DNA from: Gardnerella vaginalis 1500E
Lineage (GTDB): Bacteria; Actinomycetota; Actinomycetes; Actinomycetales; Bifidobacteriaceae
Assembly (NCBI RefSeq): GCF_000263595.1
Contig: NZ_ADES01000001.1
Location: 62,001 to 126,000 of the forward strand
Direction: 5' to 3'
Length of the DNA: 64,000 nucleotides
Made by a program: the position numbers and the translations under genes. Numbering within the stretch: the stretch's first letter is position 1; each line of letters starts with the position of its first letter. Under the pieces are notes generated by a model that worked only from the letters and a program-made list of their open reading frames with translations, was not told the DNA's origin and did no database searches. Shown one piece after another: positions 7,944 to 62,524 of this stretch.

Positions 7944-9122
7944 ATGAGTGCAGTAACGACGCAATATGTTGAAGCAGCTGGCGGAATTATCTACCGCTTG
8001 CGCGATAGTACAAACAGTTCAAACGCAGGCGAAGAGGCAAAACTAGGCAGCATTCCAAGAAAGCCACTCAATGCAATAAAGCCTAGCTACGATGATTTTG
8101 AGCTTTGCCTTGTTTACCGTCCTAAATATGACGATTGGAGCTGGCCAAAAGGAAAGAATGAGCCGAACGAATCACATCGTCACACAGCCGTGCGCGAAGT
8201 TGGAGAAGAAACAGGGTATTCAGTCACACTTGGTCCGCACATTGCCAAAATAGAGTATCCCCTTGAGCGCGAAGGCAAAAAATCTTCCAAGAGCAACACA
8301 TCAAATAGCAACCGAAGCTGCAATCCCCAGCCAGAAGTAATAAAGCGAATCCACTACTGGATGATGCGATTAATTGACAAGCCGGCTGCAGCAAAGCGTC
8401 TTCCTGCTTTCGGACCAATTAAGCCGGCGAAACCCACTGAAATAGGCAATGTTTTATGGCTTACTCCTTCTAAAGCGCGCAAAAAACTTACTCACGATAG
8501 CGACCGCGAAGTACTGGACGCTTTCTTAGAAAAGCTCCACGCAATCCAAGGAGAATATAGCACGCTGCTTTTGGTGCGTCACGGGAAAGCTGAGTCTCGA
8601 AAAACTTGGCAAGGAAGCGAAGCAACTCGACCAATCACACCTCTGGGCGCTGCCGCTTCATACGCTCTAGGCCGCGAACTTGCATGTTACGCGCCGAATA
8701 AAATCATATCGTCACCTTGGAAGCGTTGTTTAGAAACGGTTGCGGCTTTTTCGCGCGATTCTTCACTTCCTATAGAACAGGTTGCGGAACTTACTGAAGA
8801 TCATCACGAGAAACAGCCAAAATCTACGTTATCTGTGCTTATAAAAGAAATACAAAATCTTGAGAGTAACGCACAAAATACAAGCGCAGCTAGCAACGCA
8901 ATCGCAGCAAACAACGCAACAGTCATGTGCTTGCACCGCCCAATTATTGGCACTTTCTTCGATTATTTGCGCGAAATAACAAAACCTAGAGCACACAAGC
9001 GCATACTCAGCCAAAAATCACCTTACATGCCAACTGGAAGTGCCGTAGTTTTGCACATTATTAACACTCCTAAAGGCGCTCGTATTATTGATATTGAAAA
9101 GGTTACTCCAAGTGTCTACTAG
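7944..9122 (+). CDS. Nudix hydrolase fused to histidine phosphatase (MutT1-like)
   Basis: A two-domain enzyme of 392 residues. The N-terminal Nudix box is complete (G-x5-E-x7-RE-x2-EE-x-G in 'GKNEPNESHRHTAVREVGEE', about residues 74-95). The C-terminal half is a SixA/phosphoglycerate-mutase-like domain with 'LLVRHGKAES' (about residue 209) and a second His in 'VMCLHRPIIG'. The mycobacterial MutT1 of the same architecture removes 8-oxo-dGTP and cleaves diadenosine polyphosphates, and its gene also follows ppk. A TTG at 7914 is in frame. ATG 7944 with 'YVEAAGGIIYRL' as the first strand fits the family better. The neighbourhood supports the assignment. Actual substrates are inferred. Confidence 0.87.
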   Translation: MSAVTTQYVEAAGGIIYRLRDSTNSSNAGEEAKLGSIPRKPLNAIKPSYDDFELCLVYRPKYDDWSWPKGKNEPNESHRHTAVREVGEETGYSVTLGPHIAKIEYPLEREGKKSSKSNTSNSNRSCNPQPEVIKRIHYWMMRLIDKPAAAKRLPAFGPIKPAKPTEIGNVLWLTPSKARKKLTHDSDREVLDAFLEKLHAIQGEYSTLLLVRHGKAESRKTWQGSEATRPITPLGAAASYALGRELACYAPNKIISSPWKRCLETVAAFSRDSSLPIEQVAELTEDHHEKQPKSTLSVLIKEIQNLESNAQNTSAASNAIAANNATVMCLHRPIIGTFFDYLREITKPRAHKRILSQKSPYMPTGSAVVLHIINTPKGARIIDIEKVTPSVY

Positions 9123-9822
9123 TTTAAATTCGCAATCGAGTTCCATTCATTCAAGCAGATCTGCTTTTATGCCAAGCCCCACTGGCTCTGCCCGCCCAAG
9201 CCGACCTGCACAAATGGATCCTGCAATGCTCGCGCAGATTGAAGGAGGCACGGATCCGCATGTTGTAAACGAAATTAGCCACACTTCCTCCGCCGTCCTG
9301 CTTAACCGCGTTCATAAAACGCAATCGCCGGAAATTGTTGAGCGCGTGCTGAATTTGGTTGAAAATGAAGGCATTGAAGTTATTGCAGATTTGTGGAGTC
9401 ACGCGGAGGCTGAGTCTCTTCCTGGAATGTTGTGGCGACTGTATTTACTGCGCATGTCTTTACGAAAACAGCGCGAAGCTTACGCTGAGTACTGGAGTCT
9501 TGGCGAGCCTGAAACTACAAGTGCATCAGCTATTACAGGAATTGATGAGACTCCTACCGGAGAAGATATTGCGCGACTTGCAGACTCTATTCTTTCCGGC
9601 GCTTTTACAGGCGATTTTGCTGTAGCACTTTACCGATCTTCAGCTTTTACTTCGATTATTGCGCGCGGAATGCGAGTTTACGCAAAAAAGTTAGACGAGC
9701 AAGCAAATACAATACACACGCAAAAAATTGCAAAGGTTTTGCACATATCCGCAAATATGCACGCGCTTTCACTATCTTTTGCTCATGGAGCAAAATTGTG
9801 GCGAGCAGGAAAGTTAGAATAA
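9112..9822 (+). CDS. Conserved-looking actinobacterial protein of unknown function
   Basis: This 236-residue protein starts at GTG 9112, preceded by AAAAGG with good spacing, and overlaps the end of the Nudix/phosphatase gene by 11 bases, so the two are translationally linked. A Ser/Pro-rich N-terminus (about 35 residues) is followed by an all-helical region: 'HTSSAVLLNRVHKTQSPEIV', 'WRLYLLRMSLRKQREAYAEY' and a C-terminal helix-rich part. No membrane segment, signal peptide or catalytic motif is visible. I do not recognise the family. The coupling suggests a function linked to ppk or nucleotide clean-up, but this is speculation. Confidence 0.7.
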   Translation: MSTSLNSQSSSIHSSRSAFMPSPTGSARPSRPAQMDPAMLAQIEGGTDPHVVNEISHTSSAVLLNRVHKTQSPEIVERVLNLVENEGIEVIADLWSHAEAESLPGMLWRLYLLRMSLRKQREAYAEYWSLGEPETTSASAITGIDETPTGEDIARLADSILSGAFTGDFAVALYRSSAFTSIIARGMRVYAKKLDEQANTIHTQKIAKVLHISANMHALSLSFAHGAKLWRAGKLE

Positions 9823-9877
9823 ATTATTTTCGATTAAAATTGTGCGGCGCGTGAAAACAGAAAACAAGGTATACTCA

Positions 9878-9973
9878 AAATGATGCTGGCTTGTGTTTAA
9901 GCCCCGGGCTCCATTTTTTGCCGCTGCGAGCGGCGTTTGCGCCGACAGGCGCTTTCGCAAGTCAGTATCGTTT
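9878..9973 (+). ncRNA. Candidate structured RNA with a four-way junction
   Basis: Positions 9878-9895 pair with 9956-9973 over 18 consecutive base pairs, four of them G-U wobbles that exist only in a plus-strand RNA. Inside lie three hairpins: 9900-9910 (4 bp), 9920-9934 (GCCGCT/AGCGGC, 6 bp) and 9939-9952 (GCGCC/GGCGC, GACA loop). A -10-like TATACT (9870-9875) predicts a start near 9882, and T-rich sequence follows. No good -35 is visible. It is not a tRNA, and I could not match it to 4.5S, tmRNA, 6S or RNase P RNA. It could be a free small RNA or a leader of upp, which starts 140 bases downstream. Confidence 0.5.
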
Positions 9974-10112
9974 CTGTTTTGAATTTTAGATTTTAGATTT
10001 TGCTAGATAAGTTTAAATAAAATATATTTTTACTAACATTTGTTTATATTTTGCGCAAAAATAACGGCACGCCGCTAGCTTAACGTGCAATGCTTGCACT
10101 AATCTAGAAGGT

Positions 10113-10751
10113 ATGGATCTTCATGTTTTACATCATCCGCTGGTGGACCATAAGCTCACCGTTTTGCGAGATAAGAATACACCATCTAATATTTTCCGCG
10201 AGTTGGTTTCCGAATTGGTAACCCTCGAAGCTTACGAAGCAACCCGCAATTTGGAAGTTAGCGATCGCGAGATTGAAACTCCTATTTGCAAGATGACTGG
10301 CAAGCATTTAAACCGCCCACGTCCAATGGTTGTGCCGGTTTTGCGCGCTGGTCTCGGCATGCTCGACGGCATGACTCGCCTTCTTCCAACTGCTGAGGTT
10401 GGATTCCTTGGCATGAAGCGCGACGAGCAGACGCTCGATATTGTCACTTATGCCAACCGTTTGCCAGAAGATTTGACTGGTCGTCAGTGCTTCCTTCTTG
10501 ACCCAATGCTTGCCACGGGTGGCACTTTAGTTGCTGCTACACATTACTTGGCTGAGCGCGGCGCTAAGGATGTTACTGCTATTAACATTTTGGCGGCCCC
10601 AGAGGGCTTGGAACGCCTGGAGAAGGAGATTGATCCTTCTATTGACTTTAAGGTTGTTGTTTGCGCTGTTGACGAGCATTTGAACGACAAAGCTTATATT
10701 GTTCCAGGTCTTGGCGACGCTGGCGATCGTTTGTATGGTTTGATTGACTAA
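10113..10751 (+). CDS. upp: Uracil phosphoribosyltransferase
   Basis: This salvages uracil to UMP using PRPP. The 212 residues match the Upp family: 'VLHHPLVDHKLTVLRD' at the start, 'VPVLRAGLGMLDGM' (about residue 73), and the PRPP-binding loop 'LLDPMLATGGTLVAA' (about residue 128). The C-terminal uracil-binding stretch 'YIVPGLGDAGDRLYG' is also present. AGAAGGT lies just before ATG 10113. It is monocistronic and followed by a strong terminator. Confidence 0.95.
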   Translation: MDLHVLHHPLVDHKLTVLRDKNTPSNIFRELVSELVTLEAYEATRNLEVSDREIETPICKMTGKHLNRPRPMVVPVLRAGLGMLDGMTRLLPTAEVGFLGMKRDEQTLDIVTYANRLPEDLTGRQCFLLDPMLATGGTLVAATHYLAERGAKDVTAINILAAPEGLERLEKEIDPSIDFKVVVCAVDEHLNDKAYIVPGLGDAGDRLYGLID

Positions 10752-10934: not shown

Positions 10935-11357
10935 CTAAGCTTTATTCACAGCTCCTTTAGCATATAAAGCTTCTAAAGCATCGCGCAAAGTACCACTGTA
11001 GCTGATGCCAGCTTTTTGTGCCCAAGTGTCAAGCCAAGCTGGAACAGTAACATTTTTACGAACTGCATGAGAACCGTATTTTGCAGCATAGGAATCCATA
11101 TCAAGCGCAACCATAGACAACTTTGAATTAGGATTTTCTATAACAATATCACTAATATCACTAGCTTTTGGCGCAGTCTTACCACTTTCGAGTTCTGTAA
11201 GAACCCATCCACTTGCTGCATCTTCTGCCATAATCAAAGCATCCGCAAGGTTACTGCCTCCAGTTACACACCCTGGCAAATCAGGGACTTCTGCAACAAA
11301 ACCTCCGCTATTATCTTCGTATGGAGTAAGAATAACAGGATACGCTAATTTCATCAT
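10935..11357 (-). CDS. hicB: HicB antitoxin
   Basis: This is the antitoxin of a type II HicAB module. The 140 residues have the HicB fold in the N-terminal half ('VILTPYEDNSGGFVAEVPDL', then 'PGCVTGGSNLADALIMAEDA'). The C-terminal tail 'AWLDTWAQKAGISYSGTLRD' resembles a ribbon-helix-helix DNA-binding end. It overlaps the hicA stop as ATGA. A second Met at 11354 is a possible start, with AGGTG in range of both. HicB binds and neutralises HicA and usually represses the operon. Confidence 0.9.
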   Translation of the reverse strand: MMKLAYPVILTPYEDNSGGFVAEVPDLPGCVTGGSNLADALIMAEDAASGWVLTELESGKTAPKASDISDIVIENPNSKLSMVALDMDSYAAKYGSHAVRKNVTVPAWLDTWAQKAGISYSGTLRDALEALYAKGAVNKA

Positions 11358-11551
11358 TTCACCTTTGTTTCATTAATTCCCGCCTGACGCCAGATTGACT
11401 TAACAACTGATGTGTTAATATCACCTGGATGTTTAGGTACTGTGACTTTACCCGTTTTAGTTTTATGCACGAATTGGCAATGACTTCCACGCTGTGCAAA
11501 AAGTATCCAGCCGTCCTTCTTAAGACGTTTTTCAATCTCTTTGTATCTCAT
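11354..11551 (-). CDS. hicA: HicA toxin (mRNA interferase)
   Basis: This 65-residue double-stranded-RNA-binding-fold toxin starts 'MRYKEIEKRLKKDGW' and carries the active His in 'QRGSHCQFVHK', followed by 'VTVPKHPGDI'. HicA cleaves mRNA to arrest growth. The frame extends five codons further up, but ATG 11551 is six bases after a perfect -10 TATAAT and no ribosome site is present, pointing to leaderless transcription. A palindrome ATGCGCAT (11570-11577) sits just upstream of the -10 and may be the HicB operator. Confidence 0.88.
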   Translation of the reverse strand: MRYKEIEKRLKKDGWILFAQRGSHCQFVHKTKTGKVTVPKHPGDINTSVVKSIWRQAGINETKVK

Positions 11552-11555
11552 AAAA

Positions 11556-11577
11556 AGATTATACACACTATGCGCAT
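11556..11577 (-). promoter_or_regulatory. hicAB promoter with ATGCGCAT palindrome
   Basis: On the minus strand the -10 TATAAT lies six bases before the hicA ATG, and the self-complementary octamer ATGCGCAT lies at 11570-11577 between -10 and the expected -35. No clear -35 is present. The arrangement suits autoregulation by HicB. Confidence 0.55.
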
Positions 11578-22395: not shown

Positions 22396-23523
22396 TTAGT
22401 TCAAACGCAACTCAGTAGAAGGTGCAAACAGATGCATCTTAGATGGATCAATCTTAATCTTGACTGTATCACCAATCTTCGGCAAAGCACGTGGATTCAC
22501 GCGAATAGTCGTAAGCTTGTTCTGATCAGACATCATAGTAGATGCCTCTTCAGGAGAACCATCAGTTATGATATTGCCGTAGATATAGCCATCAGAACCG
22601 AGATCTTCTACGTTCATAACCTTCAAGGAGAACGCATTTGGATCATCGAAAGTTGCCAAGCTTGCGTCTTCTGGACGGAAGCCAACAATAATCTGTCCGC
22701 AATCTTCTACAGTGAGCTTATCAACAGCTTCGCTTGGAAGAACAATAGAATCCTCACCAATCTGAGCACGTCCATTAACCACTGGATGCTGGTTAATGTT
22801 CATAGATGGAGAACCAATGAAGCCTGCAACGAACACATTTGCTGGGCGGTCGTAAAGCTCAGTTGGAGCACCAACCTGCTGCAGAACACCAAGCTTGATA
22901 ACAGCAATACGATCACCCATTGTCAAAGCCTCAGTCTGATCGTGGGTCACGTACAGAGTAGTAACACCAAGCTGACGCTGCAAAGCAGCAATCTGCGTAC
23001 GAGTCTGCACGCGGAGCTTAGCATCGAGGTTCGAAAGAGGCTCATCCATAAGGAAGACTTTTGGTTCACGCACAATTGCGCGGCCCATAGCAACGCGCTG
23101 ACGCTGACCACCAGACAAAGCCTTTGGCTTACGATCCAAATACTCTGTCAAATCCAAAACTTCAGCTGCTTTTTCAACACGCTTGCGGATTTCTTCCTTA
23201 GGAACACCAGCAATCTTCAAAGCAAAGCCCATGTTGTCTGCAACTGTCATATGTGGATACAACGCGTAGTTCTGGAAGACCATTGCAATATCGCGATCCT
23301 TTGGCTGCATTGTAGTAACATCTTGACCGCCAATGAGGATACGTCCTTTGTTAACCTCTTCAAGGCCTGCCAACATACGCAAAGTAGTAGACTTACCGCA
23401 ACCAGATGGACCAACCAGTACGAGGAACTCGCCATCTCTAATAGTCATGTTCAAATCGTCAACCGAAGGCTTATCGTTGCCCGGGTAGATACGAGTCACA
23501 TGATCAAATACAACTTCTGCCAT
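22396..23523 (-). CDS. msmK: Multi-sugar ABC transporter ATP-binding protein (MsmK/UgpC type)
   Basis: This cytoplasmic ATPase energises carbohydrate-uptake ABC transporters and is typically shared by several of them. The 375 residues show Walker A 'VGPSGCGKSTT' (about residue 40), Q-loop 'VFQNYALYPHM', signature 'LSGGQRQRVAMGRA' (about 135), Walker B 'VFLMDEPLSNLD' (about 155) and the switch His in 'YVTHDQTEA'. The C-terminal TOBE/OB part ('PTELYDRPANVFVAGFIGSP') marks the sugar-importer branch. ATG 23523 is preceded by AAAGGAC. The longer frame to 23580 lacks conserved sequence. There are no permease or binding-protein genes beside it, which fits a shared ATPase. Confidence 0.92.
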   Translation of the reverse strand: MAEVVFDHVTRIYPGNDKPSVDDLNMTIRDGEFLVLVGPSGCGKSTTLRMLAGLEEVNKGRILIGGQDVTTMQPKDRDIAMVFQNYALYPHMTVADNMGFALKIAGVPKEEIRKRVEKAAEVLDLTEYLDRKPKALSGGQRQRVAMGRAIVREPKVFLMDEPLSNLDAKLRVQTRTQIAALQRQLGVTTLYVTHDQTEALTMGDRIAVIKLGVLQQVGAPTELYDRPANVFVAGFIGSPSMNINQHPVVNGRAQIGEDSIVLPSEAVDKLTVEDCGQIIVGFRPEDASLATFDDPNAFSLKVMNVEDLGSDGYIYGNIITDGSPEEASTMMSDQNKLTTIRVNPRALPKIGDTVKIKIDPSKMHLFAPSTELRLN

Positions 23524-23845
23524 GATATGTCCTTTCATCGGCAGGTACGTGCCGAACGATCCGTAGTGAAGGGTGTGCACTCATGACCCCAATTCCTACA
23601 TCGGCGGGTATCAATCGTCCACAGTTTACTTACCTGGTCCATTGAAGGTTTCTCTTCGTTGAGCCAAGCCTTAATATACCATGTTTATCTTAGAAAAACA
23701 GTAAAAAATCAGTATTTTCCAAAGCTTCGGCGTGTCGACTGCGTAGAAAGTTATTACTAAACATCTAATCAATAGTTAGTTTTCACAATAAAAAATACGA
23801 AATTATGTAATCGTTTGTTTATATTAAAAAGAAATGTTAAAAAAG
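23524..23845. other. Intergenic region without a recognisable gene
   Basis: The 320 bases hold the likely minus-strand promoter region of the MsmK-type gene (a TATATT hexamer near 23675-23680 on the minus strand) and AT-rich sequence. I see no ORF, RNA or repeat that I can support. Confidence 0.5.
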
Positions 23846-60796: not shown

Positions 60797-62524
60797 ATGA
60801 CGCAAATCAATTCAAATAATGAGGAAGAATCCAATACAGAAAAAACTGGCCAAATTGAAAAATTGGCAGACGATAATAATCAGAATGCTAATAAAGCAGC
60901 GTATGTAGAATCAGTTGAAAAAATATTATTTATGTATTCTACGGCCGTTAGTGATGTTGGCACAGTTAGAAGTAATAATCAGGATTCTGCGTTTGCTGGA
61001 GAACATTTAGCAGCTATTTGCGATGGTATGGGTGGTCATGCTGGAGGAGATACAGCCTCTACTATTGCTATTCGTTCGCTTGCACATATTGAGCAAGATT
61101 CCAGGCCACACGATGTAAAAGCTGTGTCTTCAATGATGGAAACTTCGATTATGGCAGCTCATGACGCAATCGTTGGAAAAGCTAAGCGTGAGCGACGTCT
61201 TGCTGGAATGGGAACAACTGTTACTGCAGTAACTCTCGTATGCGGTTATTGGGTTTTGGCGCATTTAGGTGATTCAAGAGCATACTTGCTTCGTGACAAT
61301 CATCTTATGAGAATGACTACAGATCACAGCTACGTTCAGCATCTTATTGATACGGGTCATATTACTCCCGAAGAAGCTAGGAATCATCCTCAAAGAAATG
61401 TTGTTATGCGCGTATTGGGAGATTTTGATATAGATCCGCGCCCTGATATTGCTTTACGAAAAGCTCATCCTTCAGACAGATGGTTACTTTGTTCAGACGG
61501 ATTGTGCGGAGTTTTAGAAGATTCCACTATTCAAGATGTTATGAGCACTATTTCTAATCAAGAAGAATGCGCTCAAAAACTTGTCGCTATGGCTCTTCGA
61601 GCAGGAAGCACGGATAATGTTACTGCTGTTGTTGCGGATGCAACTCTTGCTCTTGACGCTGATGCGTTTGATTTGCCTCATCAAACTCCATTGATTGGTG
61701 GAGCTGCAAGTCAAGATCTTGAATCTATTGCAGATATTGTTAATAAAGCAGTATCGTCGTCGCCGGCACTGAGAGAAGATAAAAATTCTCCAGCGCAACG
61801 TGCTGCAGCCTTAGTTCAAAACAATGCGGATGAATCAGATGCTGTTAATCCTTCCGTATTAATGACTAGAATTGTTCAGCCTTCGCATATTCGCGAAGAA
61901 TCAGAAGATTTACACACTCCTGATACGAATGAAATTCCTATTGTAACTAAGAAAAACGGCAAAATATCTACCGATCCGCACGATCCGGATGTTGCGCGCG
62001 CGGTTAAATATGAGAAAGATGAAGCTCATAAAGCTTATTCGTTGCGTCGTAGATGGACTCGCATAGGTATTGTTCTAGGAATTTTGCTTGGATTGTTGAT
62101 TATTTCTGGTGCTGGTTATGGAGTTTATTCGTGGACTCAAACGCAGTATTACATTAGCCAGAACAATGATCGCGTTGTTATTTATCAAGGTGTTCCAACA
62201 AATATTTTCGGAATTGCATTATCTCACGAAGTTGAATCAACCGATATTCCTGTAAAAAATCTTGATAAATCATGGCAGGATCAATTGCGTGAAGGTATTA
62301 GTTTTGGAAGTTTAGCTGAAGCTCGCGGTCATGCTTCTTTAATTCGTCGAGAAATGTTCCAGCGTGCGAAAGAAAAATTAAATGCTAAGCGTCAGAAAAA
62401 AATAGTTTCTTCAAATGATAGTAAAAGCAGCAAAGATGGTAAAAGCAGTAAAGACAGCGTAGATAGTAAGGAAAATAAGGATAATAAAGACAATAATGCG
62501 CAGCAAGGGGGTAAATCCTCATGA
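60797..62524 (+). CDS. pstP: PP2C-type serine/threonine phosphatase PstP
   Basis: This reverses Ser/Thr kinase signalling. The 575 residues have the metal-binding PP2C motifs: 'RSNNQDSAF', 'AAICDGMGGHAGGDTAST', 'VLAHLGDSRAYLLRD', 'RWLLCSDGLCGVLED' and 'GSTDNVTAVV'. An acidic linker, one membrane segment ('IGIVLGILLGLLIISGAGYG', about 425-445) and an extracellular tail rich in Lys/Ser/Asp follow. An N-terminal extension of about 45 residues precedes the catalytic domain, longer than in mycobacteria. The stop overlaps the rodA start as ATGA. Confidence 0.93.
   Translation: MTQINSNNEEESNTEKTGQIEKLADDNNQNANKAAYVESVEKILFMYSTAVSDVGTVRSNNQDSAFAGEHLAAICDGMGGHAGGDTASTIAIRSLAHIEQDSRPHDVKAVSSMMETSIMAAHDAIVGKAKRERRLAGMGTTVTAVTLVCGYWVLAHLGDSRAYLLRDNHLMRMTTDHSYVQHLIDTGHITPEEARNHPQRNVVMRVLGDFDIDPRPDIALRKAHPSDRWLLCSDGLCGVLEDSTIQDVMSTISNQEECAQKLVAMALRAGSTDNVTAVVADATLALDADAFDLPHQTPLIGGAASQDLESIADIVNKAVSSSPALREDKNSPAQRAAALVQNNADESDAVNPSVLMTRIVQPSHIREESEDLHTPDTNEIPIVTKKNGKISTDPHDPDVARAVKYEKDEAHKAYSLRRRWTRIGIVLGILLGLLIISGAGYGVYSWTQTQYYISQNNDRVVIYQGVPTNIFGIALSHEVESTDIPVKNLDKSWQDQLREGISFGSLAEARGHASLIRREMFQRAKEKLNAKRQKKIVSSNDSKSSKDGKSSKDSVDSKENKDNKDNNAQQGGKSS

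Follow-up and report, generated by a model that had tools for sequence, protein, structure and literature searches.

The window, that is, the whole stretch of DNA analyzed (64,000 nucleotides of Gardnerella vaginalis 1500E, positions 62,001 to 126,000 of contig NZ_ADES01000001.1, forward strand), holds an intergenic gap between an unnamed ORF and upp from which a small structured RNA is predicted to be transcribed (Table 1). The product of the upstream ORF, hereafter protein X, matched no Pfam or NCBIfam family; in the window, its gene is also preceded by ppk and a NUDIX/phosphatase gene. Beyond upp, two small overlapping ORFs on the minus strand (10935-11566) resemble a HicA/HicB toxin-antitoxin pair. 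Elsewhere in the window, the msiK RNA (RF01747), a known actinobacterial cis-regulatory RNA, was recognized at 23523-23581 on the minus strand (62.9 bits in Rfam against a cutoff of 33).

Table 1. Features of the protein X-upp gap and its flanking genes, in window coordinates
Feature	Position	Strand	Remark
Protein X gene, upstream neighbor	9121..9822	+	Conserved; next to the RNA at most of the Actinomycetales loci inspected
Intergenic gap with the RNA	between the unnamed ORF stop (9822) and the upp start (10113)		
CGGCGCG, GGCG-type G+C-rich motif	9845..9851	+	By eye in the upstream alignment
-10 element TATACT	9870..9875	+	Direct reading
Predicted small RNA transcript	9876..9990	+	Both ends are predictions, the 3′ end above all
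Closing helix, 5′ arm	9878..9895	+	18 bp here; ∼14 bp conserved class-wide
Hairpin 1, AGCC-CCG-GGCU	9900..9910	+	Contains the near-invariant CCCCGGG (9902-9908)
Linker, single-stranded	9911..9919	+	Begins with the conserved CCA (9911-9913); the rest is variable and U-rich
Hairpin 2, GCCGCU-GCG-AGCGGC	9920..9934	+	Consensus GYCGCUNCGAGCGRC
Hairpin 3, GCGCC-GACA-GGCGC	9939..9952	+	In most of the class, the tetraloop is GAGA or another GNRA-like loop
Closing helix, 3′ arm	9956..9973	+	Fold, covariation
upp (uracil phosphoribosyltransferase), downstream neighbor	10113..10751	+	

The minimum free energy of the segment 9870-9985 is -48.2 kcal/mol, compared with -32.6 ± 3.6 kcal/mol for shuffled sequences (z = -4.4), and none of 200 shuffles folded as low. 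An earlier note on this DNA, made from its letters, had described 18 continuous base pairs, four of them G-U, between the two arms of the closing helix. A pair count reproduced them, and the enclosed hairpins of 4, 6, and 5 bp that it had listed are exactly those of the minimum-energy fold. The full length of the helix is nonetheless a local trait: class-wide, only 14 bp (∼9882-9895 with 9956-9969) are conserved, and the outer four pairs lie outside this part. Positions 9875-9974 were matched by the covariance models R1, R2, and R3, the last two having been rebuilt from wider alignments, and a covariance-model search counted one copy of the RNA in its own genome.

Compensatory pairing around a conserved core

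In the class-wide alignment A6 (72 sequences), whose fitting to the covariance model favors pairing scores, 93.8% of the cells form standard pairs, all 14 modeled pairs of the closing helix carry double changes, and double-change cells number 270, versus 72 in shuffles (0 of 500 shuffles as high). Sliding the partner by 1 to 3 columns as a control lowered pairing in A6 to 30 to 42%, and the first alignment (A1), which was made with plain MAFFT and was not model fitted, already contained 10 pairs with double changes. Within the hairpins, one pair of hairpin 2 is C-G in 47, U-A in 23, and G-C in 2 of the 72 sequences, double changes occur at two pairs of hairpin 3, and hairpin 1 has partial support only, apart from its two inner pairs. 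The alignment of relatives that the earlier note had proposed as a search for compensatory changes therefore bore it out, with homologues throughout the class and strong compensation.

The same 72 sequences bear on the strand. Pairs form in 93.8% of the cells on the plus strand versus 88.8% on the other, and G-U cells outnumber A-C cells by 131 to 29, for which reason the RNA strand was set as plus. The argument that the G-U pairs of the helix speak for selection at the RNA level, originally drawn from the single Gardnerella sequence, thus holds across the class.

Conservation is unevenly spread over the molecule. The interior ∼60 nt are almost identical while the closing helix compensates. 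Mean column conservation is highest in the hairpins (0.89 to 0.93), followed by the closing helix (0.68) and the linker (0.53), which is the least conserved segment of the RNA. Since the outer helix varies with compensation and the hairpins are nearly invariant, it is pairing that is conserved on the outside and sequence on the inside, namely, CCCCGGG followed by CCA, UNCGA, and a GNRA-like loop. A short coding sequence was considered as well and was rejected, given lengths of 93 to 102 nt, indels in the linker, and a freely changing helix. The RNA is a real, so far unnamed structured RNA family of the class Actinomycetes.

Distribution and a longer variant

All distribution searches were run with strict filters, and the counts are therefore lower limits. 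All 101 genomes searched in the genus, which we take in the GTDB sense, with Gardnerella placed within Bifidobacterium, contain DNA of the RNA locus. A covariance model built from 24 sequences detected the RNA in 131 of 151 genomes of the family and in 195 of 198 genomes of the order, representing 71 of 72 genera. Across the class, model R2 matched 116 of 198 genomes and model R3 matched 180 of 297; 90 of the 151 genomes of one family, f22, which is Mycobacteriaceae judging by its named relatives, carry the RNA. Outside the class, a phylum-wide sample of 246 genomes returned just two marginal matches (E values of 0.0016 and 0.0076). Carriers known by name include Brevibacterium, Cellulomonas, Curtobacterium, Rothia, Kocuria, Arthrobacter, Micropruina, Nocardia carnea, Rhodococcus, and Mycolicibacterium. 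The family-level search gave no match in the 0.6- to 0.9-Mb genomes of the same family (genus label g13), nor did the class-level search in other small genomes of the class (families f23 and f44); the RNA may have been lost upon genome reduction. Nearly every genome of the order has it, normally as a single copy; several genomes have two or three copies, and a tandem pair was observed in a Mycobacteriaceae-type genome of f22 (G990:C53:125611-125803).

The search with R3 also uncovered relatives of ∼121 to 129 nt with a larger middle hairpin (loci L276-L283, L286, and L288, at positions ∼1001-1125), here referred to as type II, which retain the CCCC(C)GGG and CGCCGNGAGGCG elements. They occur in family f53 and several genera of f22, and Streptomyces-like genomes have them as second copies.

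Promoters and neighboring genes

The motif GGAAY-N15-19-GTT occurs in 61 of 203 distinct upstream regions, versus 0.9 when shuffled and 1 when the motif is reversed, with a spacer of 18 in 50 regions, 19 in 8, 17 in 3, and never 15 or 16. Its GTT mostly lies 1 to 9 bases before the model start, or ∼32 bases before it in loci with an extra 5′ hairpin. As judged from sequence, GGAAY-N17-19-GTT matches the SigR/SigH thiol-stress consensus, given for SigR as GGAAT-N18-19-GTT (PMC9205884), and constitutes a putative SigR/SigH promoter of the RNA family taken as a whole. It was found in Streptomyces-like genomes, mycobacteria, Rhodococcus, Ornithinimicrobium, Serinicoccus, and further families. Type II provides an independent check, because these loci were retrieved by the RNA model alone: 9 of 10 have a SigR-type promoter. 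In family f38 (L095, L102, and L105-L110), an additional hairpin of the AGCCC-UUCG-GGGCU type precedes the RNA, and the promoter is displaced upstream by ∼25 bases.

The Gardnerella and Bifidobacterium loci have no GGAAY-N-GTT and exhibit TATACT or a similar -10 element instead. The TATACT element that the earlier note had placed in front of the helix is indeed there, in the same -10 position across lineages, but its promoter is reduced to a -10 only, since a consensus scan upstream of the Gardnerella RNA found no sigma70 -35 and no consensus promoter. Among the 141 loci lacking the SigR-type promoter, 77% have TANNNT at -9 to +2 of the model start, compared with 8% in a control window; TTGACA is also present in several Micrococcaceae loci. 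In several Bifidobacterium/Gardnerella loci (L001-L030), the GGCG-type motif takes the place of the -35, and it is a possible activator site. A downstream hairpin with z below -2 was detected in 24% of the loci versus 3.6% in a control window. Because of the precise placement of the promoters and these downstream hairpins, a discrete transcript starting from the helix would be the natural reading class-wide, Gardnerella included, where the promoter consists of a -10 alone. For Gardnerella, the prediction is constitutive expression or a control other than SigR/SigH; stress control may fail to apply there and in Bifidobacterium because the SigR-type promoter is absent.

The gene environment is lineage dependent. 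Among 100 named loci, a set biased to Micrococcales, protein X is encoded upstream on the same strand in 63 and downstream on the opposite strand in 13, and the RNA is followed on the same strand by Pit in 48 and by DUF47 in 30. Micrococcales keep the gene order protein X-RNA-DUF47-Pit, which could reflect a local role. Adjacency to upp is restricted, among the loci examined, to part of the Bifidobacteriaceae; in Bifidobacterium, upp is often downstream, yet a number of loci have no adjacent upp. In Streptomyces, the RNA sits between an upstream helD-type gene and a downstream malic-enzyme gene, and in mycobacteria it sits between an upstream WhiB gene and a downstream carboxyltransferase gene on the opposite strand. 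Protein X is encoded downstream on the opposite strand in Curtobacterium and relatives, and the next gene is likewise on the opposite strand in Serinicoccus-type loci.

These arrangements decide largely against a cis-acting role, that is, a 5′ leader or riboswitch-like element of upp in Gardnerella or of DUF47-Pit phosphate transport in other Actinomycetales. Such a leader, which the earlier note had entertained for upp, would be in keeping with a upp start ∼140 bases downstream on the same strand, with the frequent same-strand Pit and DUF47 genes in the named loci, and with strong downstream hairpins that could be attenuators. However, no fixed 5′ position on the same strand of one gene or functional class was found: the downstream gene varies by lineage (upp, DUF47-Pit, or malic enzyme) and is often on the opposite strand, so leader function cannot be general across the class. 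Bifidobacterium loci without an adjacent upp and the opposite-strand genes of Curtobacterium and mycobacteria contradict a general role as a upp leader in particular, and synteny led us to reject the upp and Pit leaders alike. Moreover, it is not obvious how a closed 14-bp outer helix could act as a switch, and tandem and multiple copies of the RNA exist. We regard a cis-acting role as improbable. The chance of a mobile or repetitive DNA element, or of a fortuitous inverted repeat, at the locus is negligible: its long inverted repeat and the two or three copies in a few genomes would fit, but a single copy in its own genome, compensatory changes, a promoter conserved at a fixed distance, and presence throughout the genus do not.

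Proposed function and comparison with known RNAs

Conserved structure, strand, promoter type and position, and an inconstant downstream gene are all computed properties of the family, and by these computational means the RNA has its own promoter and no fixed target neighbor, as is characteristic of trans-acting sRNAs. With a probability of roughly two-thirds, it would be an independent, trans-acting structured sRNA of ∼95 to 105 nt, present class-wide, read by SigR/SigH in many lineages and from a -10-only promoter in Gardnerella. Transcription would start at or just before the closing helix, which may serve as a clamp, free in sequence and fixed in pairing, displaying the near-invariant core made up of the CCCCGGG element, CCA, the UNCGA hairpin, and the GNRA-like hairpin. 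A SigR/SigH-type promoter would drive the RNA gene in Streptomyces, Mycobacteriaceae, and several Micrococcales, which predicts induction of the RNA by thiol-oxidative stress; expression in Gardnerella and Bifidobacterium would depend on the -10-only, housekeeping-type promoter. The C-rich motif would then pair with target mRNAs at G-rich regions of translation start, CCCCGGGNNCCA being the segment proposed for pairing with mRNA start sites, or alternatively a protein would bind the invariant core. Gene expression would thereby be adjusted, under stress where the promoter is of the SigR type.

Only the last of these steps is contested by the remaining explanation, according to which the independent RNA binds a protein, the ribosome, or RNA polymerase, as 6S, Ms1, and Y RNAs do, rather than mRNAs. 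Hairpins that are nearly invariant, loops included, within a freely variable outer helix are what a protein-bound core would look like, and the usual single copy and near-universal occurrence of the RNA in the order would suit this role too. On the other hand, 6S, SRP, YrlA, and other Rfam families are all unmatched, and the motif that survives in type II is C-rich, which also suits pairing with G-rich mRNAs. We hold protein binding to be a serious contender at clearly less than even odds. Base pairing between the C-rich motif and G-rich start regions, proposed by analogy with 6C-like RNAs, ranks slightly above it with a nearly even chance; a scan of the Gardnerella genome for the 12-mer complement of this motif returned one other site only, with one mismatch.

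In the most far-reaching reading, the class-wide RNA would be a core output of the SigR/SigH thiol-oxidative stress response and a global regulator acting in trans, with Bifidobacterium and Gardnerella keeping it under housekeeping control; among the non-coding members of the SigR/SigH regulon, it would perhaps be the most widely conserved. We consider this reading somewhat better than an even bet. The stress response of Streptomyces and mycobacteria would gain a post-transcriptional arm from such a near-universal RNA under a SigR/SigH promoter, and the RNA offers a defined, testable gene in laboratory strains.

Searches of Rfam 15 (cmscan, at strict and permissive thresholds) with the window and 35 loci from other lineages gave no match at the locus, where none of the Rfam families, including 6C, 6S, SRP, and YrlA, rose above its gathering threshold. 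The Infernal search suggested in the earlier note for an RNA that it could not match by eye consequently assigned no family in any lineage tested, and its label of an unclassified small RNA is upheld by this absence together with class-wide homologues, compensation, and the aligned -10. Rfam 15 thus misses a very widespread bacterial RNA. The literature surveyed, mostly outside subscription journals, yielded no SigR/SigH-dependent sRNA at the locus and no class-wide description. A Bifidobacterium animalis sRNA list has no entry between the neighbors seen here; it does contain IGR-136, a 102-nt RNA next to a phosphate-binding protein gene (PMC4338058). The main text of a survey of ncRNAs in 50 genomes mentions neither Gardnerella, Bifidobacterium, nor actinobacteria (PMC11109978).

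Several known RNAs resemble the family in part. The small SRP RNA (RF00169) is likewise ∼100 nt, ubiquitous, and closed by a stem; it was rejected, as the genome's own SRP RNA lies elsewhere, on contig C20. Ms1 and 6S RNA are also widely conserved regulatory RNAs, but their architecture differs, and they act by binding RNA polymerase. Ms1 is reported to occur in the majority of actinobacteria (PMC9130861). The 6C RNA (RF01066), which regulates several genes in Mycobacterium tuberculosis (PMC8388888), shares with the present RNA its actinobacterial host range, a length of ∼100 nt, and C-rich conserved elements. It differs in having two C-run hairpins, whereas the present RNA is a closed multibranch of three hairpins, and RF01066 matched the locus in none of the lineages tested. 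The nearest counterpart is scr2952, a Streptomyces coelicolor sRNA (Vockenhuber et al. 2011, as cited in PMC8388888) whose expression has been confirmed and whose conservation, according to PMC8388888, extends to over half of the streptomycetes tested. The same paper states that scr2952 is in Rfam, yet the search of Rfam 15 left the locus unmatched; the literature surveyed describes a Streptomyces sRNA, neither a class-wide family nor a SigR target. By gene position alone, scr2952 is likely the orthologue of the Streptomyces members, because its name implies the neighborhood of SCO2952, which is HelD (PMC8655204), and the Streptomyces members sit there, between the helD-type and malic-enzyme genes.
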